A stretch of DNA of 64,000 nt from Apostichopus japonicus (Eukaryota > Echinodermata > Holothuroidea > Aspidochirotida > Stichopodidae): NCBI RefSeq assembly GCF_037975245.1, contig NC_092571.1:3365001-3429000 (forward strand). The letters run 5' to 3'. The translations under genes were made by a program, and so were the position numbers. Under the pieces are notes generated by a model. It was not told the DNA's origin. It ran no database searches and saw nothing but the letters and a program-made list of their open reading frames with translations. Shown here in pieces: positions 17,892 to 61,042 of this stretch (position 1 is its first letter; every line of letters starts with the position of its first letter).

Positions 17892-18397
17892 TCATTTTTG
17901 TTGATGTGTTCTTTCATGTTTTCGTAGATTGCTAACGTCTGAAAACCCTTTGCCACAAATTCCACATGCGTACGGCTTCTCACCTGTATGGCAACGTTGA
18001 TGCTTCTGACAATTACCACTCGTTTCAAATCTTTTGTGACAATACCGGCACTCGAAAGGTTTCTCGCCCGTGTGGTACCTCTCGTGGATTTTAAGTTCGC
18101 TACGATTGGCGAACGGTTTCATGCAGAACTCACAATGGAAACAAGTCTTGCCGGTATGGCGCGTCTCGTGGACCAAGTACATGGAACGATCGCTGAATTC
18201 CTTTCGACAATGACGGCAACGATATTGCTTATGCTGTTGTTTAGGGTCATGTATAACACGGCGACTCACATCCGAAGGTTTTACCCGGCTGTGTTCGACA
18301 TTGACTGCTTGAAATACTACAGGCTTCTGGTCCTCCGACGTGGTAAGTTGAATTCTTCGATCACCATCTTCACCACTGTCATGGAAGAATCGATGCC
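17892..18397 (-). CDS. C2H2 zinc-finger terminal exon Z1 (4 fingers)
   Basis: The most distal exon of the array, encoding about 168 residues. The acceptor is TTTGGTATAG|GGCATCG, after a long T-rich tract; the first two bases complete a split codon. An acidic and polar leader of about 50 residues precedes four fingers starting YRCRHC, FHCEFC, FECRYC and YACGIC. Linkers 2-3 and 3-4 are canonical TGEKP; the first is TGKTC. Fingers 2 and 4 keep the normal helix Leu, finger 3 has Cys there and finger 1 has Tyr. The exon ends Gln-Gln-Lys then TGA. The predicted role is sequence-specific DNA binding in the nucleus. It is a singleton, clearly diverged from groups A and B. Confidence 0.9.
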
Positions 18398-21300
18398 CTA
18401 TACCAAACAGAAAAAAACACAGTACGATTTGTCAGTAAGGTAATTGCCCAACCAGACTGGCCTTGAACAGATTACACACAGACACACGGACGGATCAGAA
18501 TGACACGGCTCCATTTGTTCTCTGAATCCCATATTCGTTCTCCGATACGGGAAATGAATTGATCCATTCTTCAAGCTTCTGAGAACATTATCGTCAATGT
18601 TTACTGATTATACTATACTTAGATATACATGACATCTAATAATTTGTTACAGGTCTATTTTCAGATGACAACAACGTTTGAATACATGTTAGAAGCGTCT
18701 TCAACCTACAAATCTGTCGGTTAACATTAGCTTCAAACTGCTTTTGAGTTGTTTTTGTGTAATGCTTTGATACCAATCGATCCCATCACAACGTAAAATC
18801 TAAGTCGATAATTTCTTTATAGGCAGTTACTTTTATTTCAAGTACAGTAAATAAAGAAGTGTCTGGACGATGAAATGTCGAATAAATTCATCGATTTATT
18901 TCGTACTCATAACCTTCCCTTTGGAGAAAAAGTAAAGCAAGATCATTAATAGTTTGACTAATTACAACAGTATTTTGTGGAATACTTTGTTTGTTCTAAG
19001 TGGGCAACCGAAAAGCAGATTTAAATTTTAAAATGGTTGAGATAAGAGAGTGGTAAGTGTTTTTTGCACTATACGAGGAATTGAAGCACGACGAAGATAC
19101 TGCATTCACTTGAAATAACCGCTCATTATAGTTAACGACTAATAAAATATGTAGTGGACAACCCAATTAAGAAAACTTATGAGTTGTCGTATCTCGCGAC
19201 ATCATTCGGCTTTACTTTTGTTCAGAGTATATATTTCCATAGAAACGCTTGAATAATCTTAAAGTACACGGAGTAAACATAGTGTATTATTGTACGAAGA
19301 CGCTCCTAAATAGTGCAACTTAGAAGTTCGAACTTCAGTATGTAATGTAGGCCAGACCTATTCGGCGTCTATACATCTGTATATTCCAAACCAATGAACT
19401 TCAAAGTTGCGAGAGAGAGAGAGCAATATACAAGTTCTGTGAAATGTGAGATGGTTTTACTGGCAATCTTAACTCAATGCATGATTGATGATGTCAAATT
19501 ACTGAGAAAAAGTGTCCTGTAGCCAAAGCATTCTTTGCCTGGAAATCGTCTGCATTTCTGACGAATAAAGCTAAGACGAGTTCAATATTTGGTTTCAAAA
19601 AGGAAAAGTTTCGACTTTACCTAAGCGGAACTACAATTGACATCATAGCTGTTGATACTCCTTGAATCTTTATCCTTAGATCATCAAGCGCACATCTGCC
19701 TTCAATAATACTGTCAAATGTCAAGAGGCAACCAAGACAGTAACTTAAGCTTAAGGTCAATTTTGCAATCTTAAAAAGAACCCTGAAGTACCTTGTCGAA
19801 GCTTGTAAGTAAATTGAGCAAGGATAAGATGGTAATAATGCATGCTGGCACCTGCAGCAATTCTCAAGACAAACTTCTTCCTTTTTTTAGAATTATTTAC
19901 GTGCATCTGAAGTCACAGATTATATAATTCTCAATTTCAGTGAAATCATCGTCTGAAATTGTTCGCTAGTGTACCATATTTACCACAGTAACCTTTGATG
20001 TCCCCCAACCCCAGCTTAGACATGGCACCGAAACTAATAACAACTATCAGAAGTGTTCTTGTAAAGATGACGTTATAGAAAAGAATTCAAATACCATTAT
20101 GCACTAGTTTCTTGCTTACAAGTATACTTAATTGATGCTCTTAAGGTGACAGCGTATCTAATTGTTATTTTTCTCTGAAGTTTTCAACGTACAATCTGGT
20201 TGGACTAACAACTTAGATATCTTTAGTGAACGCATTATTAACACGACCAACACTATTCATAGGATATGAAGCCTTTGCACACGAACCAAATTACTATTGA
20301 TTCAGTAAGTATGGCATGTTGATCTCTTGACCTTTGCAGAGCACAACTCCTTCAGCATGGGGTATAACAGAAACGGTCGCATACCATTTAACAGCAATAT
20401 GAAGTGATGGAATGGACCGGCTACAGCAATTATATAAAGCAGAGACAGGATTTTCCAAATTTGCTAATGGAAGCATCTGGCGTACAAGAGAAAGCAATAT
20501 ATATTTACAAATAAGCAAGAGGTAGGGGTGGGGTGGGGTTAGGGGAAACACGGGGGCTGCCGCAGGCTTGGGATGAACACCCTTACAATTACCCGTAGAT
20601 TAAAGGTGCATCGATATACAATTATAGGACTATTTTGAGCGTGTTTGTACAAAGTCTTACATTTCTCTTTCCAGTTTTCAATTCCTGCCATTGCCTTAAC
20701 TTTATCTTATCAAATCTTTGATTTAGTAATTTACGTTGAAATTAAAGATCTTTGCGCAAACCTTCCTTTAGTATAAAATACAGGACTTCATATGTAATCT
20801 TTCTACTTTCTTTTGAGAAACTATAAAAAGTGTTTTACATCAATCAGTCCATTCGTTTTGATTGGTGATAACTACTCATATAACAAAACAATTCGATTTT
20901 AATTTGTCAGAACAAAGAGTTAACTAGATAACTGATTGCAAACAGATGGGATGCTTTTTTAGATTGATCAATTCCGCACTCATTTAGATCAACGTCAAGT
21001 AAACATTGATGTAAACTAGCGCAAGCATACAACCCAATGATGTTGCACCCAATAAACCATTCCAAAGAGCTTTGAAAAGTTCTCATGGAAAAGTTTAAAG
21101 TTTAAAACTGCTTTCTATTGATCTCGAGATCCGTATCGAATATACCGAATATAAATTGTTGAATTGAGATATTTTAATTTGTAAATGGAGTTGGATGGCC
21201 AGGGAGAAGAACGAGGTATAAGTTTAAACTTAAGCATCACAGTTGCAGTCACATAGGCAAAGCTTTCCCACAAAATCTTCCCTCTTCGATCCACTTTGTA

Positions 21301-24300
21301 ATAAACAGCTACTGCTATTCGAACCATTTTCTTCTTATATTCGATTTTAAAATGGTACTGAGGCGTTGAATAGACTGTATTAAGCAAATGGGATTCACGT
21401 ATTTTTTTTTCAGTTAAATTTAAAAATGATAGCAAAATGTGGCGTTCAAGATTTTCCCCATCGTAACATTGCTTCATTTTTTAGTGCTACGAGTTTCTTA
21501 TAGAACACTGCTCACCAAATTCACCTCATCACTTAAATAAACGGTCTGAAACAAGACCAGTAGAAACCAGTTCTGACCTGGTAATTTACTATAGTAACGG
21601 TACCAGGACAACAAACCTGATTCTTACTTGAAACTCATATAGGTTAGGCGTAGTTACACTTGTTATTTGATATGAAATATAGTCAGCCAAATGCTCATGT
21701 CCTATAGACAGAAGCACACACTTGGCTTGAGAGTTATAACGACCAGTAGTCAACGCAAGATACTAACAATATGGTTTAAACTATTGCGACTTAATTTGTT
21801 TAAAATACAGTTTTGCAATTTATTTTTATCCGCAGTTAACACCATATAAACAGGATTATTAATGATAATAACGTTAAGAGAAATACGAGGCTGCAGGCTC
21901 ACATATCTGTTTTGCACTAATTACACATAACATAGGGAATGTGCCCTACATAGTTGGATCTGCCGACATAACGGTCCGGTATTTCCTCGTTAGTAGATGT
22001 TCATGGCCTTGCCCTACATGATGCAGCTCTTGCATGTGACTTTGCAAATTCATGGAGTAACAGAAGGATTTCAAGTAAATGTCTTAATGCCGGGATATTT
22101 AGATGACTTATAATATTTGCTCATGTACGGTTGATTTGCTACTTAACGGGAGCACTAATGTTAACGTTCTGTTGCGTGCGTAGTCACAAATTCCTCATTA
22201 ACCTGCTAAATCAGTCAGAAGTTGACAGTTACAAGAAACGTATACGTATAGGAAGATCAAATCAAATGTCTTAGGTATATATAGATCCAAGGACGAACTA
22301 TTTTGATAGAAAATGCTGTGTTCGCCACGATTTTGATTACGTAGTGATTTTGATGTTACTGACCAATTGCCGAACGAATCGTGTGGCTTGGGGGAGAGCT
22401 GGAGGACTGTTCTGGAACTTCGGATAATACCGTTGTAACTACAATACAAGGAGTGGCTTAATTGCTCTCAAGATCTGTAATCGAACGCAAATGTGATGGA
22501 GTTTTGAAAGGAACGTTGTCATTAACAATATACGAGTAAATATTTTCACAAATAAGGGAAGTCGACTGGAAAAGATATGTACAAACACTCGTCATTTTAC
22601 TAATAATTTACCAAGAAAGTTAGGGTCCGTTGATTTATTTATTCTTTTCGGCAATAACATTCTTAATTACAAGCACGTCATTTAAAGTCAACAATTTCCA
22701 CTAGCAAATTATTAAAAAAATTAACATATTCAAATCAACACTTTAGCAAACTTGCTGAAGGGCCGAACTTAACTTACTCTCTTGATTTAAATAATATATA
22801 TTCACCAGTATTTGATTGAAAAAGGAGGTTTCCTCTCGTAGAGTCGTATCCCAATTGCTGTATATTAAAGTCACAGATGCGGAATTGCATGGTTATTATT
22901 AAGGTACGAGAAAGGTGGTAAACTTCCAAATTTGTTAGCACTCTACTGACAGAAATGGACACACTTTGAGCTACAGCGCCATTGACAGTAAATATGTTGA
23001 TTAAAAATGATCCGAATAAAAGATAAGTTTCAATCAAAACGAAAACACTGACCGGGAAAATATAAATTAACTTGATAGAAAGACAAGTAGATTTTTTTTT
23101 TTTAATAATCAATACAGCAGCTTGCCTTGGGGCATCAAATGTCTAGAACTAACGTAAAAGTTACATCTTTCCGCCCAACTAGTCAACATTCATTACCGAA
23201 AAGTCGATTATATTATAACATTATCAACAATCCATCACCCATGGGTGACATTAGCAGTAGTATTCACATGCAAAGGCATCACTCAAAAGTGTTCACTTCT
23301 CTCCAATATGGCAAAGAAAACTCTGTGTGCTTCAGTATTGAATGATTTTGGAGAACTAATGAGAAACACAAAATGCTGATATAGCTCACAGCATTCCAAG
23401 AAAGTGTCGAGACAAGAGACACATTTCCATAACTGTGGAATTGAATCTGCAAAAGTCTATAGACCTATCTATAATCATGTACTTGGGCTCGCCAAATTTT
23501 ACCACAAAGGGTATGGTGTATCTTTATCCCGCTTACCCCCCCCCCCCCCCAGTCAACCATAACTTTCCCGTTCATCACAACTTCTTGAATAACTGTAGCT
23601 TCTCAGGATCACAGCCAGTCCCAAATTACGAATAGATCATTATTGAAACAGTATTATTTTTATTGCAGGTCATTCGTCGTTGGCATTTTCAGGATTTCAA
23701 ACTTCTGTTACTCAGAAATTACTGTAAAATTTATCACCTATATAGGGGTTTCGCATAAAACAATCTGTTTACATACAGACAATCTTTTTCTTAGGACTTC
23801 CTGTTGGGTTTTGTTAAGAGTGATTCAGGGAGCCTGCATTATTTACTTTAACACGAACTAACAAGGTGAACGGAATTAATTAAATTATAGCTACATTCCG
23901 AGTATTCATGACGCACTATAGGTCATCGAAGTTCAACTGCGTACTGGGCGATTGACATATTGCGATTGATATATTTGACTTTAAATGTCCATCATCTGTG
24001 AACCATGAAACTGTCAGGCTTATGATCCCATGATTCAATCAGACTTCACACGAAACCGAACAACTTCACAGGTAAATGATGCATACTGCAGCTTGAAACA
24101 TCAGAAAAGAACAACATGGTCGCCGCTGAGCTAACGTGCCTGATCACAATACAGAACAAATGCTCGAACACCGCAAAACCAAAAAAAGGTCTCCGAAGAA
24201 ATGTTCGTACAAGCGAGAACGGGACCTTAAAAATATTGCCACCAAATATAACATCAGATCGAAGAAACTTTCGTAACATTCCAAACATCCTTGATCAGTT

Positions 24301-25012: not shown

Positions 25013-25596
25013 TTACACAGTAGGTTCTGGTGGCATCGTTTCTCTTGACCGACTCTGAGCCACCAGCATTGCATTGGTATGTTTTATAACATGACCCTTT
25101 AGAGAACGTTGTGTCGTGAACGCACGTCCACAGATGTGACAGACGAAGGGTTTTTCTCCCGTATGGCGTCTTTCGTGCTTCCTACAGTTACTGCTCGTGA
25201 TAAAGCACATATCACAAAACCGGCACTTGAATGGCTTCTCTCCCGTATGACAACGTTCATGGATTTTGCAATTGCTGCTACTTGCGAATTGCTTTCGACA
25301 ATAACGACAGCTGTAAGGTTTCTCCCCAGTATGTTTACGCTCATGGGTAGTCAAATTTGAACGCAATCTGAAACACTTCCCACAATGAGTGCAACGGTGG
25401 AGTTTCTTGCCCATGTGCACGCTCTCGTGAATCAGTAGCTGTTCCCGATCTCGGAAGTCCATGCCACAGAGTCTGCAGTTTAAATTTTTGGTTATCTGAT
25501 TGATTGGTTGAGGTTCAAGAGTGGACGGAAACACTTCCTGTCCAGATCCTGCAAGAGCTGGAATCCTTCCTACCCGACTCTTTCCGCTCCAACTAC
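25013..25596 (-). CDS. C2H2 zinc-finger terminal exon Z2 (5 fingers)
   Basis: The longest exon of the array, about 194 residues. The acceptor is TTACTTCCGTAG|GTAGTTGG. The frame is open from there, giving a Ser/Gly/Arg-rich leader, although no ATG is present. Five fingers begin LNCRLC, HRCTHC, YSCRYC, FKCRFC and FVCHIC. The linker after finger 1 is MGKKL; the others are TGEKP. Fingers 3 and 4 have Cys at the helix position normally held by Leu; fingers 1, 2 and 5 keep Leu. A 20-residue tail after finger 5 ends Glu-Pro-Thr-Val, then TAA. This is the only five-finger exon in the array. Confidence 0.9.
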
Positions 25597-30582: not shown

Positions 30583-31103
30583 TCACTGGCTTTGATGAGA
30601 CTTCCTATGTGTTGCGAAGTTGCTGGATGCCGCAAAACGCTTTCCACAAATACTACACTGATATGGCTTATGACCAGTATGACATCTCTCGTGTATGTTA
30701 CACTCCGCCACAGAAGCGAAGGCCTTGGGGCAGTACTGGCACTTGAATGGTTTTTCCCCAGTGTGTCTTCTTTCATGTATTGCCAATGTAGACTTTGTCG
30801 TAAGCACCCTGCCACAGTATTTACATATGAATGATTTCAGTTGCCGCCGGAGGAAGACGGGGTGTGAGGCTGCTTGGTGAGCACTTCTGGATCTAAATGT
30901 CATGAACATCTCACCGCATTGCTCACATTGAAAGGATTTCGAGGTTGGTTGAGTCACATCTCTTCGTTGGTCAGCGGCTATTGGCAACGAACGTCTTCTA
31001 CCAATGTTCTTTGGCATGCTTCCTATCCTTGTGTTTCGGACTCTTGTCCTTGTAACTGTCATTAGAGCTTCCTCGCCAGTTCCTTGCTTCTGTAATCCGC
31101 CAT
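30583..31103 (-). CDS. C2H2 zinc-finger terminal exon Z3 (4 fingers, atypical)
   Basis: About 173 residues after the acceptor GGTTTTTGTAG|ATGGCGG. The ATG right after the AG is out of the finger frame, so it does not start this protein; the split codon is N|AT (Asp if the upstream exon ends in G). The leader is basic, with an RRR motif. Finger 1 (FQCEQC) has a four-residue gap between its His residues and is joined to finger 2 by a long non-TGEKP linker. Finger 2 (FICKYC) has Leu in place of the usual core Phe. Fingers 3 and 4 (FKCQYC, YQCSIC) are ordinary, though the linker between them is TGHKP. The end is His-Gln-Ser-Gln, then TGA. Confidence 0.88.
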
Positions 31104-32341
31104 CTACAAAAACCAAGTGCGATACATTTCCTGTATTAGAAAAGGGACGAAGTTCTTCAACGTGGACAAATCTTAATGCCTGCCTATCGGATATTTTGGA
31201 GAAAGAAAAATATAAGCGTCGCTTTGATTATCAAGTGGCTTTGTATACACGTACAAGGCACTTCAAGTACATGGTAAAGTCTTTCTTGCAATCGAGACTC
31301 GTGCAGGAATTTAATGTAGACAATTTGTCATTTTATAATATTGGGTTCTCGTTATGCCCTACACGAGGATTACTCCGCCAGATATTATAAAGTCAAGAAA
31401 GGTTTTTTGAAACTCGGCATCTGGGAAGCGTGAAATACAAGTAGAGTAGATGTCATTTAGGTATGATAATGGTATACAAAACGATCTACACCACCAAGAA
31501 ACGACCCTTCCAGTTGTCGGAAACAACACATAACACGTACAGTAAGTTCCATGCATAGATGAAAGTGAGATGCATCAGTACATAGTATTTGTTCTCATGT
31601 TGTAGGCTTATTTATTCTTTCCAACGTTAAAGTTCACAAAGAAATATGAATGACCGTCAGAGTTGAAAGAAATAATATACCTGGAAGACAGCTTCATTAC
31701 CAGGAACAGATAAGCAAAAAAAGAACGAAAACCAGCAATAGCTCAAATTGCTATCGAGTGATTGGCTTTAGAAGTCAAGTATATGCTGGAAACCGAAAAG
31801 CAAGTCAGCCAAAATTAGAAAACATGTTTACTGTTTCACGCCAACATATGCGGTTCAGTCCCAAAACTTGGAGAGGATTGTTTCCACACCCGTGTCTCGC
31901 GGTGAAGCTACTGAATATACAATTCTCAAATGACCAACTCGTTCAGTTTGGAGATGGATGCGATACGATAGATGAGCTTAACTATTTACTTCGTTTCTCA
32001 TTTTTGTTTATTTATTTCTAGCACAAGCGATGCAATGGGAGGTGATATAAATACAGTTAAATTACAGTTAATTCAAGTTTCAGATAGCCTGATAACTCGA
32101 TCTCTTGTCCTAATCAAAAACTTGAGTTGGACAGTTCGGTACCATGACAAAATACAATCATGATCTTTGTAGGTTACACACTAATTGAGAGGCACATTGA
32201 ATAGTCGCATTGACTGTATAATGGTGTTCAAATATCGTTTTCTCAATTTATGAACAATACTATGGTTCAACAACTATCAACATGAAAGTTTCAGTACTAG
32301 TATCGTAGCAAATCCGATTCATATCAGTTTATAGAGTCATC
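31104..32341. other. 1.2 kb spacer
   Basis: Presumed intron between Z3 and Z4. The plus-strand open frames (31004-31390 and 31650-32021) have no recognisable domain, and the first overlaps exon Z3 on the other strand. No feature was identified. Confidence 0.5.
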
Positions 32342-32796
32342 TTATTCCGGCAATCCTTGAACCTTGGACGGACATTTCTTTTCGTGTTTGCGCCAATTAC
32401 TGCCGTCCGAAAAGCGCCGGCCACAAAATTTACAGGAATATGGTTTCACCCCAGTGTGCTTTCTCTCATGAAGCTTCGCCTCATTAGATGTCGAAAATCC
32501 CTTTGAACAATAATGACATTTGTAAGGCTTCTCGCCTCTATGGCGTCTCTCATGTATTTTACATGCAGAACTGTAAGTAAAGGGTCTTCCACAACATTTG
32601 CAAACAAATACTGCTTGTTTGGTCCCTCTATCACAGGTGGAAGACTTGCTTGTTTGCTTGTACGGTAGTTCTTTTATATGTTCATCTGCACCTTTGCTGC
32701 TCTTTGCCCAGGTTATTGCAATTTTGGGAAAACCAGAAAGGCTACCTCCACTGTCTGTCACAGAGGCGATTGCACGTGCTTCCCCAAAAATCAGAC
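32342..32796 (-). CDS. C2H2 zinc-finger terminal exon Z4 (3 fingers, last is C2HC)
   Basis: About 151 residues after the acceptor TTTTCTTCTTAG|GTCTGAT. A 70-residue leader rich in Ser, Gly and Lys precedes three fingers (FVCKCC, YKCHYC, YSCKFC). The helix position that is normally Leu is Cys, Ala and Trp in fingers 1, 2 and 3. The last finger ends His-Glu-Lys-Lys-Cys, so its fourth zinc ligand is Cys, not His. Linkers are RGEKP and TGVKP. A short tail follows, then TAA. It is closest in finger style to group B ([11 protein letters not shown] in finger 1). Confidence 0.9.
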
Positions 32797-35264: not shown

Positions 35265-35674
35265 TCAGCAGCATTTTCGCTTGTGCTTTAGCAAGTTACT
35301 TTGGGCTGAAAAACGTTTGTCGCATACTCTGCATTGGAACGGCTTTTCTCCTGTGTGCAATCTCTCATGAACTTTACATTCTCCACAACTTGCAAAAGCT
35401 TTTGGACAAAAGCGGCACTTGTAAGGTCTTTCACCTGTGTGACGCCTCTCATGAATTTTACAGGATGAACTCTGAGTGAAACCTCTACCACAATACTGAC
35501 AAGCAAATTTTAACTGCCTATCTGTTTTATATGGTTTTCTTCCAACCAATCGTGGATTCTTTAGAGTTTGGAGGAATTTCGGCAAGACAGTCATAGCTTT
35601 ATTGGTAACCAAAGCTGAAACAATCCTGTGTCTTTTGGCTTCTTTATTGGTTCCAGTCTCTTCCCACTTTTCAC
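35265..35674 (-). CDS. C2H2 zinc-finger terminal exon B1 (3 fingers)
   Basis: First of three near-copies (group B), 136 residues. The acceptor is TTTTCTCATTGTTAG|GTGAAAAG, preceded by an intron block shared with B2 and B3. The leader includes [11 protein letters not shown]. Fingers lie at about residues 59-79, 87-107 and 115-135 (FACQYC, YKCRFC, FQCRVC), with linkers TGERP and TGEKP. Helix Leu is Cys in fingers 1 and 2 and normal in finger 3. Finger 3 ends His-Lys-Arg-Lys-Cys, a C2HC ligand set, then a further Cys and TGA. DNA binding is predicted; the target is unknown. Confidence 0.92.
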
Positions 35675-39111: not shown

Positions 39112-39530
39112 TCAGGAGCATTTTCGCTGGTGCTTCAACAAGTTACTCTGATCCGAAAAACGTCTGTTACAGATGCTGCACTGGAAGGGCTTTTCCCCTG
39201 TGTGTATTCTCTCATGAACTTTACATTCCCCAGAACTTGGAAACGTTTTTGGACAAAAGTGACAATTGTAGGGCCTTTCACCCGTGTGACGCCTCTCATG
39301 AATTTTGCAGGATGAACTCTGAGTGAAACCTCTACCACAATACTGACAAGCAAATTTAAACTGCCTATTCATTCTTTCCTTGTGTGGATATGTTTTTCGT
39401 CTAGCCGGTCCTGGGTTCCTTAGAGTTTCAGAGGAAGGGAAGACAGCCATAGCTTTATTGGTAACCAAAGCTGAAACAATCCTGTGTCTCTTGACTTCTC
39501 TATTGGTTCCAAGCTCTGCACTTTTTTGAC
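39112..39530 (-). CDS. C2H2 zinc-finger terminal exon B2 (3 fingers)
   Basis: Second group B copy, 139 residues. The acceptor is TTTTCTCATTGTTAG|GTCAAAAA. The leader matches B1 apart from a small insertion with PHKER, which B3 also has. Fingers are FACQYC, YNCHFC and FQCSIC; finger 1 is identical to B1. Finger 3 ends His-Gln-Arg-Lys-Cys then Ser and TGA, so it is again C2HC. Helix Leu is Cys in fingers 1 and 2. Differences from B1 lie mainly in fingers 2 and 3 and the leader, as expected for duplicates that have diverged in binding preference. Confidence 0.92.
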
Positions 39531-42021: not shown

Positions 42022-42446
42022 TCAGGCTTTACAGTGCTTTCTCTCATGCTTACGCAAGTTACTGTGATCCGCAAATCGTTTCCCACAGACACTGCATTGA
42101 AATGGTTTTTCCCCAGTATGTGATCTCTCATGAAGTTTACATTCACCACAACTTGGAAAAGCTTTTGGACAAAAGTGACACTTGTAGGGCCTTTCACCTG
42201 TGTGACGCCTTTCATGAATTTTACATGCTGAACTCTGAGTGAAACCTCTACCACAATACTGACAAGCAAATTTTAACTGCCTATCGCTTCTTTCCTTGTG
42301 TGGATATGTTTTTCGTCCAACCAGTCCTGGATACTTTAGAGTTTCAGAAGACGGTAAGACAGTCATTGCTCTTTTGGTAATCAAAGCTGAAACAATCCTG
42401 TGTCTCTTGACTTCTTTATTGGTTCCAGTAACTTCCAATTTTTGAC
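42022..42446 (-). CDS. C2H2 zinc-finger terminal exon B3 (3 fingers)
   Basis: Third group B copy, 141 residues. The acceptor is TTTTCTCATTGTTAG|GTCAAAAATT. The leader and finger 1 closely match B2. Fingers are FACQYC, YKCHFC and FQCSVC. Finger 3 ends His-Glu-Arg-Lys-His-Cys, so it keeps a normal second His, with the extra Cys next to it. It is therefore the group member with a standard C2H2 ligand set. It stops at TGA after Lys-Ala. It is the promoter-proximal member of group B if the array is one gene. Confidence 0.92.
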
Positions 42447-43852: not shown

Positions 43853-44298
43853 CTATCTGAAGTGTACTTTTAAGTGTCTTTTGTAGTTAGTGGACGAAGA
43901 AAAGGCCCTGGGACAAAGTTTGCATTCGTATGGTCTTTCTCCTGTGTGTCTCCTCTCATGAACCTTTCTATTGCTTCCGCATGAAAATTCCTTTGCGCAG
44001 AATTTACATTTATATGGCCTTTGACTATTATGAATCTCTTCGTGGATATGACGAGCAACATCATCTTTGAAACCTTTTCCACAGAACTTGCAACTAAACA
44101 GGGCGACGTCATAGGTTGGCTTCTTGTTACACCTTTTATGGGAACTTTTTCTAAGTCCTTGCTCTGAAGCCAGGTAAAGATGAGGCACCTCTTGTGCCAT
44201 TTGTTCTCCAAAGATAAATGATGTCGAGGGCGGTATCTCTTTACAGTATACCAAGTTGTCAATTCTTGCTTCTCGTATCTCTTGCATTAATGAAGGAT
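43853..44298 (-). CDS. C2H2 zinc-finger terminal exon Z5 (3 fingers)
   Basis: Singleton between groups B and A, 148 residues. The acceptor is CTCTTTTATCCCTTCAG|ATCCTTC, with the split codon N|AT as in Z3. The long leader (about 68 residues) is mostly polar and acidic and differs from the other groups. Fingers are FSCKFC, YKCKFC and YECKLC, with linkers NSQRP and TGERP. The helix Leu position is Arg, Arg and Tyr, so no finger keeps it. The end is Val-His-Phe-Arg, then TAG, with no tail beyond the last finger. Confidence 0.9.
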
Positions 44299-46990: not shown

Positions 46991-48534
46991 ATCTTATTTA
47001 CAAGCTAGGGGCCAAAGGAATGTTTGGTTGACAGTCCAGTTTTTCCACTAGCGAACAGGTGCTTTAAAACTCAATCTAACGTCGATGAGCTAAAAAAAAG
47101 CTAGTGCTTTAAAAGTAGCTAATTTAAGGCTACAATTAATTTACGTATTTGATTCAATACATGCACACAATCTAATAACACTGTAGTGAGTGAAAAAAAG
47201 GTTCTTGACACAACTCTTATCTTTTCTTCAAACGGTTTCCAACATTTATTACAAATGTGATCTTAGCAACTTTAAAATGATGGAGATGTCAGTATCCATA
47301 CAGTAAACACACAAATAAACAGTTTCAATACCAGAACCATAACAGAATAAGCATACATGTGTAACACATGTTTCCAAATGTTTCCAAATGTAAAAACTGT
47401 AGACCTACAGTACTAAACCAAAGGCTAAATAAATATCATACAATTAATTAAAGCAATAAGGAAACTAAAAAAGGAGATCAGGGCAAACTTTTCTCTGGTT
47501 GTCCCTCAACAACCAGGTCTTACGTTCACTAAAGGAGAGAAGTGTACGTTTGGTGAAAAGAATAGGGTTTGGGCCGGTAAAACTCCCCTACGGGTGGATC
47601 ATAGGCCTACCACTAGTAGTTTTGTTTTATTTCAGTATCTCCACAGTGTCAAAGGGTGATACCAATTTATCATTTTGGGAATTTTATTAAGTGCAATGCT
47701 GATTGATCTGAATCAGATGTTAACAAGACCTCCATAGCTGACTTTGGTTCATTAAAAATTTGCCATGGGGTTAGTTACACAACTAAATGCAATCAATTTA
47801 AGAACTTAAATATCCGCCACAGATATTATTCATGAACTTTCCGAAATTGAAAAATTATGCAAGATAAACAAAAGTCCCACATTTCTGGTGTGAAACAATT
47901 TCCCGTCTTTACGGTACATCCATTAAAAGGAAGAAGAAACTGTTATTTCCCTTACAAATCCTTGAAAGAGTGATATTCTGTAATATACCTGATGCAAATT
48001 TTGAAAAACTTTTGAATAGTACGCATTACCACCCCTTCGTCCCCACAACCCCGCAATCCACAAAGATCATGCCAGATAACAAGAAGGGTAGCAAATTGTA
48101 ACACAATTCATTAATTACAGTACTTATATGTAAATATGTATATAAATATGGTTTTCTCCACACATAATCCATATGATCCAGTTACTACTAATCAGTTTGA
48201 TGTAAATTATGACTATTGTATTAAATATATAACTTTCTTCACATCATAACATAGCAAAGACAAATGGTGAGTTAATCCTCCAATAATTTCAAGCCTCTTG
48301 CTATGGTCAGTTTATAGTTCTAACACTCGTAATAAACAATGAAACCATCCTACCAGTGTCACTCTCTATATATACAGTATGCATCTTCATATAGTTTATA
48401 GTGGAAGCCTTTAAATGAAACAAGTACTGTCACAGGCATCTGCAGTTCTACATATAACTTTCACTATATGTCTAGTATTAGTGAAAGTTATACTGTGAAT
48501 TGAATGGAGGACTTCACTGAAGTGCAGACCAATA

Positions 48535-49098
48535 AACAACCTTGACCGTCCTAACATGATCTGAATATCGGTCAATGTAAAGAGAAATGTATCTACTATT
48601 CAAATAAACAGAACTTGACCGTCCTAACATGATCTGAATATCGGTGAATGTAAAGAGAAATGTGTCTGCTATTCAAATAAACAAAACTTGACCGTCCTAA
48701 CATGATCTGAATATCGGTGAAAGTAAAGAGAAAAACCGTCCTAACATGATCTGAATATAGGTGAATGTAAAGAGATATGTATCTACTATTCAAATAAACA
48801 GAACTTGACCATCCTAACATGATCTGAATATTGGTGAATGTAAAGAGAAATGTATCTACTATTCAAATAAACAGAACTTGACTGTCCTAACATGATCTGA
48901 ATATCGGTCAATGTAAAGAGAAATGTATCTACTATTCAAATAAACAGAACTTGACCGTCCTAACATGATCTAAATATCGGTGAATGTAAAGAGAAATGTA
49001 TCTACTATTCAAATAAACAAACTTGACCGTCCTAACATGATCTGAATATATAGGTGAATGTAAAGAGAAATGTATCTACTATTCAAATAAACAAAACT
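48535..49098. repeat. 73-bp minisatellite, about 8 copies
   Basis: The core CTTGACCGTCCTAACATGAT recurs with a period of 73 bases, starting at 48541, 48614 and 48687. One copy is shortened to 44 bases, then the spacing returns to 73 (71 once). Each unit ends ATTCAAATAAACA. The open frame across it is a by-product. Confidence 0.95.
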
Positions 49099-49506: not shown

Positions 49507-49755
49507 ATACCACTGAGAGACCATGGTTCACTGAGCCTGTGCAGAATATACTGTACCACTGAGAGAACATGGTTCACTGAGCCTGTGCAGATCATACCAC
49601 TCTAAGACCATGATTCACTGAGCCTTTGCAGACTATACCACTGAGACCATGGTTCATTGAGCATGTGCAAAATATACCACTGAGAGACCATGGTTCACTG
49701 AGCCTGTGCTGACTATACCACTGAGAGACCATGGTTCACTGAGCCTGTGCAGACT
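49507..49755. repeat. 41-46-bp minisatellite, about 6 copies
   Basis: The unit runs TACCACTGAGAGACCATGG then TTCACTGAGCCTGTGCAG. Copies start near 49508, 49554, 49595, 49636, 49675 and 49716. It ends about 150 bases before the stop-codon side of exon A1. Confidence 0.92.
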
Positions 49756-49907
49756 TCCTCTTGTTACTTTACAATCATATGAAAGGATAAACATTAGATC
49801 CTATAGTACTTGCTGCTGTCCTCAGATATCATTCTAATGAAAATATTCAAAATTCCAATCAAGATATAATGCTTTTGTTTTCTATTCTATTTTAGTCAAT
49901 TGAAGCT

Positions 49908-50383
49908 TTAGCCAGATCCACTTTTATGCTTCACTTCATGATGACCTCTGTTTCCTGCACTGGCAAAACATTTGTCACAATATCTACACTTGTAAGGTCT
50001 TGCACCAGTGTGAATATTTTCATGGGTTTTTCTTTCAATTCCACTCACAAACAGCTTTGGACAAAAGCGACATTTAAACGGTCTCTCTCCGGTGTGCCTG
50101 CGCTCATGGGTTTTACAGTTATCTCTTCGCTTAAAGGGACGTTCACAATATTGGCAAACAAAGTGAGCCACTTGCTTTGCAGATTGAATTCCGGAAACTG
50201 AGGGAGATGTATTAGGAGGGTTAACTAACTGCTTGATTTGCTTCAGCTTTCCTGCACCTGATCTACTCTTAACTGATTTGACAAAGGCTCTTGATCTTGG
50301 AAGAGAAATGTTTCGCCAAGTTCCCTCAGAGCCAGCTGTAAGTTCTGCTGATTGCAACAGTCCCTGACTCGGGTAGGATAAAC
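49908..50383 (-). CDS. C2H2 zinc-finger terminal exon A1 (3 fingers)
   Basis: Distal member of group A, 158 residues. The acceptor is GCTTGCTTCATAG|GTTTATCC; upstream codons that look open are intron. The leader begins Leu-Ser-Tyr-Pro-Ser-Gln and is rich in Ser, Arg and Lys, with possible nuclear-localisation clusters. Fingers lie at residues 77-97, 105-125 and 133-153 (FVCQYC, FKCRFC, YKCRYC). The helix Leu position is Cys, Arg and Arg. Finger 3 (ASAGNRGHHEVKH) differs from all other group A members, as does the short Lys-Ser-Gly-Ser-Gly tail. Finger 2 (SGIERKTHENIH) matches A2. Confidence 0.93.
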
Positions 50384-51224: not shown

Positions 51225-51703
51225 CTAAACTGGCTGATCGCGTGCATGTCTAGTTTCATGCTGGCCTCTGCTTCCTGTATTAGCGAACCATTTTTCACAA
51301 TATCTACACTTGTAAGGCTTTGCACCAGTGTGAATATTCTCATGGGTTTTTCTTTCAATTCCACTAACAAACAGTTTTGGACAAAACTGACATTTAAACG
51401 GTCTCTCCCCGGTGTGCCTGCGCTCATGGGTTTTACAGTTATCTCTTCGCTTAAAGGGACGGTCGCAGAACTGGCAGGAAAAGTAAGTCATAGTCTTTTT
51501 AGTACAACTTCCGGACATTGAGGGAGATGTATTAGGAGGGTTAATTAACTGCTTGATTCGCTTCGACTTTCCTTCACCTGATCTACTCTTAACAGATTTG
51601 ACAGAGGCCCTTGATCTTGACTGAGAAATGTTTCGCCATGTTCCCTCAGCGCCAGCGGTTAGTTCTGCTGATTGCAACAGTCCCTGACTCGGGTAGTATA
51701 AAC
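51225..51703 (-). CDS. C2H2 zinc-finger terminal exon A2 (3 fingers)
   Basis: 159 residues. The acceptor is GCTTGCTTCATAG|GTTTATAC, giving Tyr-Tyr where other copies have Ser-Tyr. The leader is nearly the same as in A3 and A4, with KRIKQLINPPN shared specifically with A4. Fingers are FSCQFC, FKCQFC and YKCRYC, at the same residue positions as in A1. Finger 1 (KRRDNCKTHERRH) is identical in A1-A5; finger 2 is as in A1; finger 3 reads EKWFANTGSRGQHE, close to A4. It ends TAG. With A3 it forms the two-exon block that reappears as A4 and A5. Confidence 0.93.
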
Positions 51704-52526: not shown

Positions 52527-53005
52527 CTAAGCTAATTGATCGGATGAATGTCTAGTTTCATGGTGGAGTCGGCTTCCTGTACTAGCAAACCAGCTGTCAC
52601 AAAATCTACACTTGTAAGGTTTTGCACCAGTGTGAATATTTTCATGGGTCTTCCTTTCACCTTTACTAGAAAACAACTTAGGACAAAACTGACATTTAAA
52701 CGGTCTCTCTCCGGTGTGCCTGCGCTCATGGGTTTTACAGTTATCTCTTCGCTTAAAGGGACGGTCGCAGAATTGGCAGAAAAAGTAAGTCATAGTCTTT
52801 TTAACACAACTTCCGGACATTGAGGGAGATGTATTAGGAGTGTTAATTAACTGCTTGCTTCGCTTCGACTTTCCTTCACCTGATCTATTCTTAACAGATT
52901 TGACAGAGGCCCTTGATCTTGACTGAGAAATGTTTCGCCATGTTCCCTCAGCGCCAGCTGTTAGTTCTGCTGATTGCAACAGTCCCTGACTCGTGTAGGA
53001 TAAAC
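52527..53005 (-). CDS. C2H2 zinc-finger terminal exon A3 (3 fingers)
   Basis: 159 residues. The acceptor is GCTTGCTTCATAG|GTTTATCC. The leader shares KRSKQL with A5, against KRIKQL in A2 and A4. Finger 1 is the group standard; finger 2 is SSKGERKTHENIH and finger 3 is DSWFASTGSRLHHE. Both are near-identical to A5 but different from the neighbours A2 and A4. Even the sequence beyond the stop (ATATCAGTATTTGTACC on +) is shared with A5. The tail is Ser-Ser-Asp-Gln-Leu-Ala, then TAG. Confidence 0.93.
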
Positions 53006-53863: not shown

Positions 53864-54342
53864 CTAGGCTGACTGGTTATGTGAATGTCTAGTTTCATGC
53901 TGGCCTCGGCTTCCTGTGCTCGCAAACCATTTTTCACAATATCTACACTTGTAAGGTTTGGCACCAGTGTGAATATTCTCATGGGATTGTCTTTCACCTC
54001 CGCTGGTAAACAGCTTTGGACAAAACTGACATTTAAACGGTCTCTCTCCGGTGTGCCTGCGCTCATGGGTTTTACAGTTATCTCTTCGCTTAAAGGAACG
54101 GTCGCAGAATTGGCAAGAAAAGTAAGTCATAGTCTTTTTAACACAACTTCCGGACAATGAGGGAGATGTATTAGGAGGGTTAATTAACTGCTTGATTCGC
54201 TTCGACTTTCCTTCACCTGATCTATTATTAACAGATTTGACAGAGGCCCTTGATCTTGACTGAGAAATGTTTCGCCAAGTTCCCTCGGAGCCAGCTGTAA
54301 GTTGTGCTGATTGCAACAGTCCCTGACTCGGGTAGGATAAAC
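53864..54342 (-). CDS. C2H2 zinc-finger terminal exon A4 (3 fingers)
   Basis: 159 residues. The acceptor is TTTATCCTTGCTTCATAG|GTTTATCC. The leader and finger 3 (EKWFASTGSRGQHE) pair it with A2; finger 2 is TSGGERQSHENIH, unlike A2 and closer to A6 at that site. Finger 1 is the group standard, with one Ser for Pro before it. The first reading frame upstream of the acceptor is intronic. It ends Asn-Gln-Ser-Ala, then TAG. Confidence 0.93.
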
Positions 54343-55150: not shown

Positions 55151-55629
55151 CTAAGCTAATTGATTGGATGAATGTCTAGTTTCATGGTGGAGTCGGCTTC
55201 CGGTGCTAGCAAACCAGCTGTCACAGAATCTACACTTGTAAGGTTTGGCACCAGTGTGAACATGTTCGTGGGATTTTCTTTCACCTTTACTAGAAAACAG
55301 TTTAGGACAAAACTGACATTTAAATGGTCTCTCTCCGGTGTGCCTGCGCTCATGGGTTTTACAGTTATCTCGTCGCTTAAAGGGACGGTCGCAGAATTGG
55401 CAGAAAAAGTAAGTCATAGTCTTTTTAGTACAACTTCTGGACATTGAGGTAGATGAATTAGAAGGATTATTTAACTGCTTGCTTCGCTTCAACTTTCCTT
55501 CACCTGATCTATTCTTAACTGATTTGACAGAGGCCCTTGATCTTGAAAGAGAATTGTTTCGCCAAGGTCCCTCAGCGCCAGCTGTTAGTTCTGCTGATTG
55601 CAAGAGTCCCTGACTCGGGTAGGATAAAC
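55151..55629 (-). CDS. C2H2 zinc-finger terminal exon A5 (3 fingers)
   Basis: 159 residues. The acceptor is GCTTGCTTCATAG|GTTTATCC. It pairs with A3 through SSKGER in finger 2, GSRLHHETRH in finger 3 and the Ser-Ser-Asn-Gln-Leu-Ala tail. Finger 2 ends HEHVH, unlike A3. The leader has a few private changes (WRNNS, KQLNNPSNSS). It ends TAG. Confidence 0.93.
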
Positions 55630-56386
55630 CTATGAAGCAAGCATAAAAGCAGTAGGTGGTATCCAGCTCTACAATCAAGCCAAAAGTTAGTTAATATAAT
55701 TACTTGCCCTGTTGCCAGTCAAGTGAAGGTGTTAAAAGTTGAGGGGAAGGGGAGGGGAGGGGGAGGAAGAGCGGTCTCGTCGTTAATAGGGATTGCTATG
55801 CATTCAATGAACTTCACATACATCTGCATATGGGATTCCTCTTGTTACCAAAGCTAATTCTTTTGAAAGAGTTCACACGTGACAATGCCAGCGTAGGAAT
55901 TACTTCCTCAGTTTTCAACATGTCAAAGTAGTTTGTCTTCAGGTATATGGTTTCTTCCAAGAGTCATTTTTCAAGACTGTGCAGGACAAGACAGATTGTC
56001 AAATCAATTTACTGGTTCTGCCTAAGACAACCCAAAAAAAGTCTCAAAAGTTGTCTGACAGCAGCTACTTTGGTTGTAGAACAAAAGCACTGCTGTTCTC
56101 ATAAAGAAACAAAACCTCAGCCATGGGTTAGGTTGTCAGGCAAAAAGAGGAAAATAACAAGCTAATCCTTTAAAAAGTAAGTTCACAAGGTCTTGTCTCA
56201 TGTACACAATTCTCATGGTAAACACCTACAGTATTTATTGGAAACACTTCAATAACAGAAACAGAAAACTGAACACATCTCATTCCTTCTACAGGATATG
56301 AACAGAGGCATCATTTATATCTGTTCATGCAAAAACACAGCCCTTACATTGACGGACATTCCATGTAACATTTGTACCACTTGATT

Positions 56387-56865
56387 CTAGGTTGACTGAT
56401 CTCGTGAATGTCTAGTTTCGTGCTGGCCTCGGCTTCCTGTGCTAGCATACCATTTATCGCAAAATCTACACTTGTAAGGCTTGGCCCCAGTATGAATATT
56501 CTCATGGGCTTTTCTTTCACCTCCGCTGGTGAACAGCTTTGGGCAGTACTGACATTTAAAGGGTCTCTCTCCAGTGTGTCTGCGTTCGTGGACTTTAAGA
56601 TTACCCCGGAAGCTGAACGGGCGCTCGCAATATTTACAGAGAAAAAAGGTCTTAGTTCTTCCAGCGGGGTCATCAGACACAGGAGAAACTGTATCAGATT
56701 TGCTAACTGGCAACTTCTTGCGACGATTCAACCTGTCTTCACTCAATTTTTTCCTAGGTTTGACAGAGGCCCTTGATGGCTGACTAGATAAATTCCTGTA
56801 ACTTCTCTCAGGGCCACCTGCAAGAACTGCTGATTGCAGTGTTCCTTGACTGACGTAGGATATAC
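56387..56865 (-). CDS. C2H2 zinc-finger terminal exon A6 (3 fingers)
   Basis: 159 residues. The acceptor is TTATCCTTGCTTCATAG|GTATATCC, and the frame is open from there although it has no ATG. The leader is of a second type (GGPERSYRNLSS, later LNRRKK), shared with A7 and A8 and not with A1-A5. Finger 1 is SFRGNLKVHERRH, the only group A finger 1 that keeps the canonical helix Leu. Finger 2 is TSGGERKAHENIH; finger 3 begins YKCRFC and has Tyr instead of the core Phe (KWYASTGSRGQHE). It ends TAG. Confidence 0.92.
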
Positions 56866-58263
56866 CTATGAAGCAAGGATAAAAGGACTAGGTTGGGTTG
56901 TATCCAGCTTAACAAGCAATCAAGAAATTTGTGCGTAACAGTAACCATGACTTTTGCGGGTTGAAGGAGGGGAGGGTGGCATGCTTTCACATGAGTTTGG
57001 CAGCAAGACTGATGTCTGTGACTCTGTGAGTGACGTTTTCATGGGTTCACAAAATTTCTCACTACGAGTATAAAAATTCTAACAGATTATAATTACATGC
57101 TGAACTATTCTTGATCTCAATTGTGTTGCATAGCTGCAGAAGAAATGTGTGGAAAGTTTGGTGCTGCAAACTGAGCACTGATTAGTGATTACAGTACAGA
57201 TAAATTTAATAATCACTCTCAACCTGAATACTGTTCTTGCAGTTCATCAAGGGCAAATATTTATTGGCTTTCTCGTCGTCCAAAACAAACAAAATTTCAA
57301 CTCCGAATAAAAAATCAGCTTTAAGGTTGTTTATGTCAAATTCAGATTGCATTACTATTAAATACCCCCAGTAGACTGTTTAAATTGGTAACACCATCCA
57401 AAATAAACAAAAATAGTTGTAGGCCTAACAAAGCCAAGGAATAATAACACATGACCATTCAACAAATCTGTTAATGTAAGATCGGAGAGGTTTTTCGGAC
57501 AGCAACAATCCTATGATTGGCAAGGATGATTTCTACTGTTTAATCCAAACCAAGAAATACTGGAGAAACTGTTTAGCCTTGGGGTCGTCACCATTTTACA
57601 AGAGATTTAGATAAGTTAATATTTCTTCTGTATGCGGTATGATTTCCAGATGCAATTCCAAGACTGTGAACCTAAGATGGGCAACCGCTCCTCACTCTGC
57701 AGCAATATATTTGCCTTTCTAATGAATCTTTGTATCATTCTCATGTGTACAATGAAATATCAGTCATTACAACTGGGACCACTTTTATGTTCCTGTCGGG
57801 AAAACAGGAGGCAATACTACTGTATATATATCACAAAGCTACTCACACAGGGTAATTCATTTCAAGTCATTCTGCCTGGAATGAAAATGACTGTAAGAGT
57901 GCTACAGAGAGTAGAGTAGAGTTTTGTAACTCAAATAAAAATGGACTTTGTGCATTGTTTCATAGCTTTTACGAATTGGTTTCTGTACCTCTTCATGACG
58001 TAGATCATATACATACTGTACAAACATAAATGTTGAATGAGTTCAGGGTATAATTTATCTGGTTTTGCATTGCAGAATGCTAAGCCAAATGGGAAAAATT
58101 ACTACAGTATACAAGTGCAAAGCGGTTTTTGGACACAGGTACCATAACATTTTGTAAAGGAATGCTCAAAGCCTTCAAAACTGCCGCACAAAGTTTGTTG
58201 GTTACATTTATACAGAAAAATTTCTTTTGTAAGAGCGGTGGAAAATAATCCAATTTTAAACAC

Positions 58264-58269
58264 TTTATT
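58264..58269 (-). terminator. AATAAA overlapping the stop codon of exon A7
   Basis: TTTATT on the + strand reads AATAAA on the minus strand. The stop TAA (58265-58267) lies inside it. It is the only canonical hexamer I saw at such close range after any of the sixteen exons. Whether it is used is unknown; the implied 3' UTR would be very short. Confidence 0.45.
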
Positions 58270-58764
58270 TGAAAGTTAGATCAGATCCTGCTGAAAGTTC
58301 ACGTTTATGCTTAGTTTCATGCTGGCCCCTGTTTCCTATGCTGGCGAATGCTTTCTCGCAATATCTACATTTGAAAGGCTTAGCCCCGGTGTGGATGTTT
58401 TCGTGGGCTTTTCTTTCACTTCCACTGACAAACAGCTTTGGACAAAACTGACATTTAAAGGGTCTCTCTCCAGTGTGTCTGCGCTCATGCACCGTACAAT
58501 TACTCCTGAGTCTGAAGGGACGATCACAAAAACGGCACAAAATGTAAGTCATAGTTCTTCCGGCAGGGTTAATGGGAACTGAAGGAATCGCTTGAGCTGT
58601 ATGATTTTGAACTTTCTTGCGGCGATTCAACCTGTCTCGGCACAATTTATTCCTAGATTTAACAGAGGACCGTGACGGCGAACTAGACAAATTCCTGTAA
58701 CTTCCCTCGGGACCTCCTGAAAGAACCGCTGTTTGCAATATTCCATGACTGGGATAGGATAAAC
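58265..58764 (-). CDS. C2H2 zinc-finger terminal exon A7 (3 fingers)
   Basis: The longest group A exon, 166 residues. The acceptor is TTATCCTTGCTTCATAG|GTTTATCC. The leader is of the A6-A8 type with DRLNRRKK. Fingers are ILCRFC, FKCQFC and FKCRYC; the helix Leu position is Cys, Arg and Arg. Finger 3 is EKAFASIGNRGQHE. The extra length is a C-terminal extension ending Asp-Leu-Thr-Phe-Lys before TAA. That stop overlaps an AATAAA, so the coding and polyadenylation signals share bases. Confidence 0.92.
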
Positions 58765-59059
58765 CTATGAAGCAAGGATAAGAAGCAGTAGGTGGTATCC
58801 AGACAAACAAGAAATTATTCAGTTCATATTCATTGCCCATCGCATCTAGATTAATGCATTCTCGTAGAGGGAGTTTCCCCGAAATATCCGAAACAAGCTG
58901 ATTCTATAACACACTATACGGTAGCTACTAATGTACAGTACTTTCACAAATGACAAACACTAATGGAGGGTAAGTTCAAGCTTACAGCAGCTACGGTGAA
59001 GTGACCATGTATTATCACCAAACTTTTTTATTAAACAGTTCAATGTTCACCAATCTGCA

Positions 59060-59500
59060 TCACCAAAGCAACATATGGTACAGTACATGGTTATTCTATA
59101 GATCTATGTCTTTGTGTTACCAAACAGAGCCACTGTTACACCAAAGCAACATATGGTATGTGGTTATTCTACAGATGTCTTCGTGTAACCAAACAGAGCC
59201 AGTGTAACACCAAAGCAACATACTGTATGGTACATGGTTATTCTAGTGATGTATTTGTGTTACCAAACAGCCACTGTAACACCAAAGCAACATATGGTAC
59301 ATGTTTATTCTACAGATGTCTTGGTGTTACTAAACAGAGCCACTGTAACACCAAAGCAACATATGGTACATGTTTATTCTATAGATGTTTTTGTGTTACC
59401 AAACAGAGCCACTGTAACAGCAAAGCAACATATGGTACATGGTTATTCTATAGATGTTTTTGTGTTACCAAACAGAGCCACTGTAACCAACCGAGTAACT
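59060..59500. repeat. 69-bp minisatellite, 6-7 copies
   Basis: The core ACCAAAGCAACATATGGTA recurs near 59062, 59140, 59209, 59281, 59350 and 59419, mostly 69 bases apart. Because 69 is a multiple of three, it creates a repetitive 140-codon open frame (59158-59580) with 23-residue repeats. I regard that frame as non-coding. Confidence 0.93.
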
Positions 59501-60560
59501 GTAACCAAACTGTGGTACACTTTATTCAAACACTCATCTGCTTGGTAAACTTTACCAGTTACTTTTTAAAACTTCTGTAGCCTAACCAGCTCTGGTAACT
59601 AAAGAAAACTGCTCTTCTTTGCATCATACTGAAAGTCAATGAATCTACCTACAAATCATGTTAAAGCAACCCAGAGGAAGAGGTACTGTAGTTTCAATAG
59701 ACAAGATTTGATTTGTACGCTTGTACCTGTTCACAAGAAGGACACATACAGTATAACATATTATACTATCTACAGTAGTACAGTACATTATTACATTTTT
59801 TGGTCTTAATCCATGTTTAGGATTGCGGCGCTTGTCGCCTTCTAAAGCTGCTTTTTTTATTTAAATTTTCAATTATGCTATTTAACAAAATGCAAAACAA
59901 TGCAACTTTGATTAGCTTCATTACAATACAGAAACCAAAAGCTGTCAGGGATACAAAATGTACAAAATGTTCAGGACATAGTTATTTCCTCATCTATGGT
60001 TACATCTGATGCTGATAGAGTATTCACAATATTGGTACAATTAATAAATCCTAACTGTTTCTATAGCATGACTATAAAACACTGAAAATAGTGCAACCGA
60101 CATGTAGGCTGGGACTTTCTTCTGCCCATGAATTCAACATGCTTTAAACCCACTTTGCCCTTATATTTCATAGAGATGGTTGAAAAGAAAATTCTATAAC
60201 ACTAGAAAGAAGGATAAATGAACTTTAAGCTTAAACAGCTTTAATATCTACTGTAGAAATAATGATTACAGTCTTACAGCTATAAAGCTATTTCTGTGGG
60301 GAAGAGGAGGGCTAGGGAAGGGGTGGGAACTTGAGGATCCTGCCTCCAATTCCAAATTCTGGGTATTGAGAGACATAATTAAATCAACACTAGACTTGAA
60401 TGACACTGTATATTGAGGTGCATGACAAGTGTATTTTTATGTTGTTTACAACCCCCTCTTCAGATGGACACAGTTTATGATTAGACTTTACAGACTTTTC
60501 AATTTCATATCTAAGGTATTGTTCTAGTCTTTTATATATTTATATATACAGTACAGATAC

Positions 60561-61042
60561 CTAGACTGGATTATCCTGTTTATGTCTTCCTTCATGTTGG
60601 CCACGGCTTCCTGTGCTGGCAAAACTTTTGTCACAAAATCTACACTTGTAAGGCTTGGCGCCTGTATGGAGATTCTCATGGGTTTTTCTTTCACTTCCAC
60701 TTACAAACAGCTTTGGACAAAACTGACATTTAAAGGGTCTCTCTCCAGTGTGCCGGCGCTCGTGGACTTTACAGTTACTCTTGAGACTGAACGGCCGATC
60801 GCAAAATTGGCACAAAAAGAAAGTCTTAGTTCTTCCGGCAGCATTATTAGACACTGAGGGATTTGTACCGGATGCAGGGATTTGTGTTTTCCTGCGATGG
60901 CGATTCACCCTGGCTTCACCAGATTTACCCTTAGAACTGACAGAGGCCTGTGATGGCAGATTAGACAAATTCCTGTAACTTCCCTCAGGGCCATCTGCAC
61001 GTTCTTTCGTTTGCATTAATCCTTGTCTGGGGTAGGATAAAC
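60561..61042 (-). CDS. C2H2 zinc-finger terminal exon A8 (3 fingers)
   Basis: The most promoter-proximal exon seen, 160 residues. The acceptor is TTATCCTTGCTTCATAG|GTTTATCC; further upstream the intron no longer matches the group block. The leader is of the A6-A8 type, with RVNRHRRK as a probable nuclear signal. Fingers are FLCQFC, FKCQFC and YKCRFC; helix Leu is Cys, Arg and Arg. Finger 3 is DKSFASTGSRGQHE. It ends Asp-Asn-Pro-Val, then TAG. No further zinc-finger exon is visible between here and the window end. Confidence 0.92.

Follow-up and report, generated by a model that had tools for sequence, protein, structure and literature searches.

The closest described systems to the locus reported here are two Drosophila genes in which a constant 5′ part encoding a BTB domain is joined, by trans-splicing, to many alternative 3′ ends. 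The first, lola, has 20 isoforms, 17 of them with different C2H2 zinc-finger ends, and its BTB domain, which forms hexamers, is of the TTK type described as arthropod-specific in the available part of PMC11426971. In the second, mod(mdg4), constant exons and alternative 3′ exons give rise to at least 30 isoforms (available parts of PMC12692577 and PMC4667647). A third relevant group is formed by the plant HD-tuins (HD2/HDT), composed of an N-terminal nucleoplasmin-like domain (NPL), an acidic stretch and a C-terminal C2H2 finger, which the accessible sections of PMC4414354 named in 2015 as one of three NPL arrangements, together with NPL-FKBP and nucleoplasmin. Here we analyze a stretch of 64,000 nucleotides from the sea cucumber Apostichopus japonicus (C11:3365001-3429000, hereafter the window) and its surroundings. 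The locus is very probably one minus-strand transcription-factor gene, in which an NPL front is joined to one of 24 mutually alternative C2H2 terminal exons.

The layout resembles that of lola, where one constant 5′ part with a multimerizing domain serves many alternative 3′ ends, mostly C2H2 fingers, but the front is a TTK-type BTB domain in the fly and NPL in the sea cucumber. With mod(mdg4) it shares the joining of constant exons to alternative 3′ exons, whereas that gene has a BTB front, mostly FLYWCH ends, some of them on the opposite strand, and is trans-spliced, while the sea-cucumber locus has 24 C2H2 ends on one strand. The fly scheme of one 5′ part with many 3′ terminal exons is thus found here in the form of a single constant module, 24 open ends and, in a relative, two ends on one front; the constant part contains no BTB domain, and the locus is lola-like in mechanism and not a lola homolog. 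Such a layout in an echinoderm would be convergent. As for the HD-tuins, they have in common with the locus an NPL front, an acidic stretch and C-terminal C2H2 fingers, and both profile and fold comparisons rank HDT2 first in the PDB; however, they are plant proteins with one finger, whereas the sea-cucumber locus has 24 alternative ends of three to five fingers each and is not an HD-tuin. We know of no alternative-end array in HD-tuins.

Within the window, all 16 finger exons lie on the minus strand, each ending in its own stop and carrying three to five C2H2 finger motifs (Table 1), position 17892 being the stop end of E1 and 61042 the acceptor of E16. The top-scoring AG under a generic acceptor matrix gives a length of 2 modulo 3 in 16 of 16 exons, which bears out what an earlier note on this DNA had said of their strand, stops and phase. 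Its statement that the exons have no start codon was too strong, since in-frame ATGs precede the fingers in E3 and E5-E8, and the array does not stop at sixteen exons and position 61042 as the note had it. We scanned 264,000 bases (the window with 150 kb of upstream and 50 kb of downstream sequence, 5,000 bases being N), and the finger pattern revealed, on the upstream side, eight more exons like these, for a total of 24 on one strand over 66 kb (C11:3382892-3448605), while no more exons of array type were found in the 50 kb downstream of the window. The phase of the top-scoring AG is identical in all 24; among the candidate AGs of the 16 window exons, 23-50% per exon have it. Because the ends form about nine sequence classes (E1, E2, E3, E4, E5-7, E8, E9-22, E23 and E24), these exons are not independent trials, and the shared phase alone is not evidence of a shared donor since tandem duplication would preserve it. 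The five gaps upstream of E9-E13 measure 757-858 nucleotides each, and the longest gap of the array 6,615. Three minisatellites lie between array exons, at window positions 48468-49069, 49508-49755 and 59106-59506.

The constant part is located beyond the window on the minus-strand upstream side, where the earlier note had placed it, and consists of seven exons (1 and a-f) with clear acceptors and donors (C11:3463304-3454029, minus strand). The first clue was an open frame at C11:3458.2-3458.5 kb matching PF17800, and the joined constant protein matches this family with an E value of 1.9e-18 (67.4 bits, for a curated cut-off of 23.4). Exon 1 was located via the (M)MIWG start of proteins from relatives (MMIWG in P0122), and exon f via their linker. 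Together, the seven exons encode an NPL of ~97 residues, an acidic linker and a Q-rich, low-complexity linker, that is, 305 residues including the codon shared with the end. Exon d contains a VKNE motif, which we take to be SUMO-consensus-like. Exons a-f occur only once in the 264 kb (exon 1 is too short for such a search), and no copy of them is found between the finger exons, in keeping with the note's remark that no shared domain lies there. Moreover, the donors of exon 1 and exons a-f are all in phase 1, which is the phase required by all 24 ends, and the front joined to each end remains open to one stop in 24 of 24 isoforms. The note's search plan, for a BTB or other N-terminal exon with a phase-1 donor, thus led to the right donor phase but to NPL instead of BTB. 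BTB was rejected as the constant domain: the genome has 59 BTB matches, none of them within ~9.7 Mb on C11, where the three matches lie at 13.1, 24.3 and 24.8 Mb. Beside exon d, a minisatellite (C11:3455898-3456380) repeats the final codons of this exon five times, several of the copies with its GT donor, which could provide alternative donors.

Joining of front and ends can be followed in relatives. Among 264 candidates, seven proteins matched the constant part in a protein search: P0122-P0124 (from relatives), P0125 and P0127 (Holothuria leucospilota), P0126 (A. japonicus) and a tick FKBP. Pfam identifies NPL in all six of P0122-P0127 and C2H2 fingers in five, P0127 having only NPL above threshold. 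P0123 (456 residues) and P0124 (498 residues) are identical over their first 293 residues and diverge exactly at PATT|G, which is the predicted exon f junction. They are encoded on contigs of 1,631 and 1,890 nucleotides, respectively, which we infer to be spliced RNA because they are short, while the constant exons span more than 9 kb in the A. japonicus genome. Judging from their sequences, P0123 and P0124 are unlikely to be two recent duplicate genes, since their fronts are identical while their ends are deeply diverged. In a finger-region tree, the P0124 end pairs with E2 (100/100), the P0122 end with E20 (95/85), and the P0123 end groups with E24 (91/81, under the firm-branch threshold of the tool), although BLAST ranks E23 first for the latter (118 bits over 82 residues), then E24 (112 bits over 166). 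Numbered in transcription order, the P0124 end hence matches position 23 of 24, the P0122 end position 5, and the P0123 end position 1 or 2. Queried with pre-finger segments from five exons, 3,026 candidates yielded a single match, P0121 (BSL78_14769, A. japonicus), which over its last 140 residues shares 98.6% identity with E17; a protein query made of three finger exons joined together was swamped by polyfinger proteins and uninformative. The public gene model of P0121 uses another frame across the acceptor region of E17, probably as a result of missed distant constant exons.

Structural comparisons agree with the assignment of the front. A profile of six NPL domains matches HDT2, FKBP39, FKBP43 and HDT1 in the PDB with E values of 2e-4 to 4e-4. 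The AlphaFold model of P0122 displays eight N-terminal strands matching the NPL of HDT2 and FKBP43, a long disordered linker with a single helix (residues 155-171), and a terminal set of three C2H2 fingers. Its mean predicted local distance difference test (pLDDT) score is only 54.9, with the strands found in residues 2-98 (block pLDDT 50-86) and the three fingers well ordered. Foldseek aligns the front of this model with the NPL domains of HDT2, FKBP43, HDT1 and FKBP53 (E values of 7e-7 to 1e-5, template modeling scores by target of 0.70-0.77), and its end with designed or natural three-finger proteins. P0122 is predicted to adopt the NPL β-sandwich fold. NPL proteins are reported to form pentamers, or a dimer of pentamers in the case of HD2 (PMC4414354, available part), and FKBP39 is reported to form a tetramer (PMC5225439, available part). 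The sea-cucumber NPL may oligomerize, and mixed oligomers would then bear different ends.

We propose that the phase-1 donor of exon f would be spliced to the acceptor of one among the 24 terminal exons (C11:3448605-3382892), each of which would contribute its own stop after a linker and three to five C2H2 fingers. This would yield a protein set in which a common oligomerization/chaperone-type front is combined with as many as 24 DNA-binding ends. The genomic sequence suggests that such joining takes place in A. japonicus and that all 24 ends may be used. As to the route, joining most likely proceeds by ordinary cis alternative splicing, which we consider probable, if less firmly than the single-gene arrangement itself. 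Several observations weigh against this picture. The proteins exhibiting the joining, P0122-P0124, come from relatives, and it is the shortness of their contigs that points to a cDNA origin. E9-E13 are close copies of one another and may be redundant. AATAAA/ATTAAA hexamers are not enriched after the stops, being present within 300, 600 and 750 nucleotides of 8, 11 and 15 of the 24 exons, versus 41, 63 and 72% of control positions, a result that could be explained by non-canonical signals, read-through or trans-splicing. Finally, pairing of the docking type with the intron that follows exon f, as in Dscam, was not seen for the seven of 24 exons tried (ungapped; no excess over eight shuffles each). 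Separately, tRNA and Rfam searches gave no match.

The same constant-plus-variable protein set could also arise if separate transcripts were trans-spliced, as reported for both fly genes, mod(mdg4) and lola. Poly(A) hexamers are absent after many ends, as this would allow, and fly loci of like layout do use trans-splicing (PMC11426971, PMC12692577 and PMC4667647, in the parts available); all 24 ends and the constant exons nevertheless share one strand, so that cis-splicing suffices, and we regard the trans route as unlikely.

A different possibility is that the array consists mostly of decaying duplicates with few ends in use, as the close similarity of E9-E13 might suggest. This appears improbable to us, since 24 of 24 ends are open with intact finger motifs and ends of the E2, E20 and E23/E24 types are present in relatives. 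The last 40 intron nucleotides differ by a mean of 0.11 versus a proportion of synonymous differences (pS) of 0.43 in the exons (28 pairs, E9-E16), and by 0.075 versus 0.32 for E5-E7 (three pairs), whereas the next 80 intron nucleotides differ by 0.29 and 0.32, respectively; the intron alignments were gapped alike for both stretches, and gaps flatter identity. That the acceptor-side intron is better conserved than synonymous exon sites is a sign, at the level of sequence, of acceptor use. An ungapped alignment of the 14 copies E9-E22 shows no difference over the final 10 intron bases, 84% identity over the preceding 10, and at most 46% in further bins. All 31 pairs, drawn from 11 of the 24 exons, have a ratio of nonsynonymous to synonymous divergence (dN/dS) of less than 1 (0.18-0.84).

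DNA-contacting residues of C2H2 fingers occupy helix positions -1, 2, 3 and 6, a scheme derived from Zif268, and the set at these positions is unique in each of the 24 exons. Pairwise differences among E9-E22 are 0.43 at contact positions, 0.34 at other helix positions and 0.20 in the remaining finger. This pattern fits diversified DNA binding, and the ends may bind different DNA.

That the exons represent a tandem cluster of separate zinc-finger genes, each with short 5′ exons and a common phase by mere descent, as in vertebrate KRAB-ZNF clusters, is barely credible: the ends are plainly related by duplication, which is enough to preserve phase, some finger exons have in-frame ATGs, and unrelated non-NPL 5′ exons may be accommodated in the longer gaps, but exons a-f are single-copy in the 264 kb, the five short adjacent gaps leave little room for a 3′ untranslated region, promoter, 5′ exon and intron, and an identical front is found on two different ends in P0123 and P0124.

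With the single-gene arrangement as the preferred reading, the earlier note's proposal of a lola-like combinatorial locus in a deuterostome holds for the host, a sea cucumber, and for the alternative terminal exons of one locus, as judged from 24 open isoforms and joining in relatives, but not for the BTB front. More tentatively, and with our doubts outweighing our confidence, the locus might be a BTB-free, convergent counterpart of lola, in which the NPL front forms rings and mixed rings with different ends read several DNA sites at once, and might be part of a sea-cucumber NPL-C2H2 transcription-factor family for which we found no name in the literature. In the open-access literature (the top 10-15 titles for longer result lists), no title points to an echinoderm equivalent or to an animal NPL-zinc-finger protein, which agrees with the note, whose author knew of no described equivalent. 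A "Nucleoplasmin-like protein ANO39" is listed in a table of PMC12784826, in the part available.

The array locus has company in the genome. PF17800 has 26 matches, array locus included, on nine contigs of the 671.6-Mb, 35-contig genome, an apparent expansion of NPL-containing genes. Downstream of three other NPL matches, a C2H2 finger exon was identified directly or appeared among the matches listed; a pattern scan of eight other NPL loci (~3 kb each) revealed no convincing finger exon. The match at C22:10259187 is followed by a single three-finger exon within 30 kb, and the terminal exon of the P0126 gene, at C11:9547334, encodes 267 residues, 100% identical to P0126, with a 99% copy at 6264380. 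Both genes resemble the array locus in that NPL is at the front and tandem C2H2 fingers are encoded by a terminal exon, but one finger exon was seen in each (in the 30 kb read at C22, and among the matches listed for P0126) rather than 24. This single-end layout is possibly ancestral to the array, which likely arose from a single-end NPL-C2H2 gene whose last exon would have been duplicated many times. In a genome search with E7, the six best matches are array exons, after which array exons are mixed with C17 and C1 polyfinger clusters (150 of 1,122 candidates scored).

Several features were noted in passing. Two near-identical NPL-C2H2 genes of the P0126 type lie 3.3 Mb apart (C11:6259660-6265180 and C11:9541247-9548134), by recent duplication or as an assembly matter. 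Long polyfinger C2H2 frames form large clusters at C17:1.38-1.77 Mb and C1:19.7-20.8 Mb. Just past the 3′ end of the array, exons of a rhodopsin-type G-protein-coupled receptor lie on the plus strand (window 11776-12153 and 14649-15326), the second having a somatostatin receptor as its best solved match. A minus-strand frame at window 7888-8229 presumably is a fragment resembling the reverse transcriptase of a non-LTR retrotransposon. Upstream of the locus is a single-exon RING/B-box (TRIM-like) gene (C11:3470241-3472454, minus strand).

Table 1. Constant and terminal exons of the locus. E1-E16 are given in window positions, E17-E24 and the constant exons in contig positions.
Feature	Position	Strand	Phase	Remarks
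Exon 1	C11:3463304-3463292	-	1	coding part, ATGATGCTCTGG|G
Exon a	C11:3458665-3458567	-	1	
Exon b	C11:3458398-3458246	-	1	
Exon c	C11:3457349-3457212	-	1	
Exon d	C11:3456581-3456423	-	1	or to 3456495 with shorter donor
Exon e	C11:3455369-3455154	-	1	acidic, then Q-rich
Exon f	C11:3454163-3454029	-	1	end ...SPATT|G
E24	C11:3448106-3448605	-		beyond window
E23	C11:3445360-3445856	-		beyond window
E22	C11:3443258-3443745	-		beyond window
E21	C11:3440168-3440652	-		beyond window
E20	C11:3438632-3439110	-		beyond window
E19	C11:3435916-3436403	-		beyond window
E18	C11:3434661-3435139	-		beyond window
E17	C11:3431843-3432324	-		beyond window
E16	60561..61042	-		terminal exon, 3 fingers, 159 aa
E15	58265..58764	-		terminal exon, 3 fingers, 165 aa
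E14	56387..56865	-		terminal exon, 3 fingers, 158 aa
E13	55151..55629	-		terminal exon, 3 fingers, 158 aa
E12	53864..54342	-		terminal exon, 3 fingers, 158 aa
E11	52527..53005	-		terminal exon, 3 fingers, 158 aa
E10	51225..51703	-		terminal exon, 3 fingers, 158 aa
E9	49908..50383	-		terminal exon, 3 fingers, 157 aa
E8	43853..44298	-		terminal exon, 3 fingers, 147 aa
E7	42022..42446	-		terminal exon, 3 fingers, 140 aa
E6	39112..39530	-		terminal exon, 3 fingers, 138 aa
E5	35265..35674	-		terminal exon, 3 fingers, 135 aa
E4	32342..32796	-		terminal exon, 3 fingers, 150 aa
E3	30583..31130	-		terminal exon, 4 finger motifs, 181 aa
E2	25013..25596	-		terminal exon, 5 fingers, 193 aa; ortholog of P0124 end
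E1	17892..18397	-		terminal exon, 4 C2H2 fingers, 167 aa

The presence of an NPL front instead of BTB makes this locus more interesting, and the joining of individual ends, tissue by tissue, as well as the formation of mixed oligomers can be tested directly. An animal NPL-C2H2 protein, if confirmed, would extend the list of NPL arrangements, of which three were named in 2015 (PMC4414354, available part). If our interpretation is true, the layout of one multimerizing front with many DNA-binding ends would have arisen at least twice with unrelated fronts, a hexameric BTB in flies and NPL here, which would suggest that selection acts on the combination of multimerization and swappable fingers.

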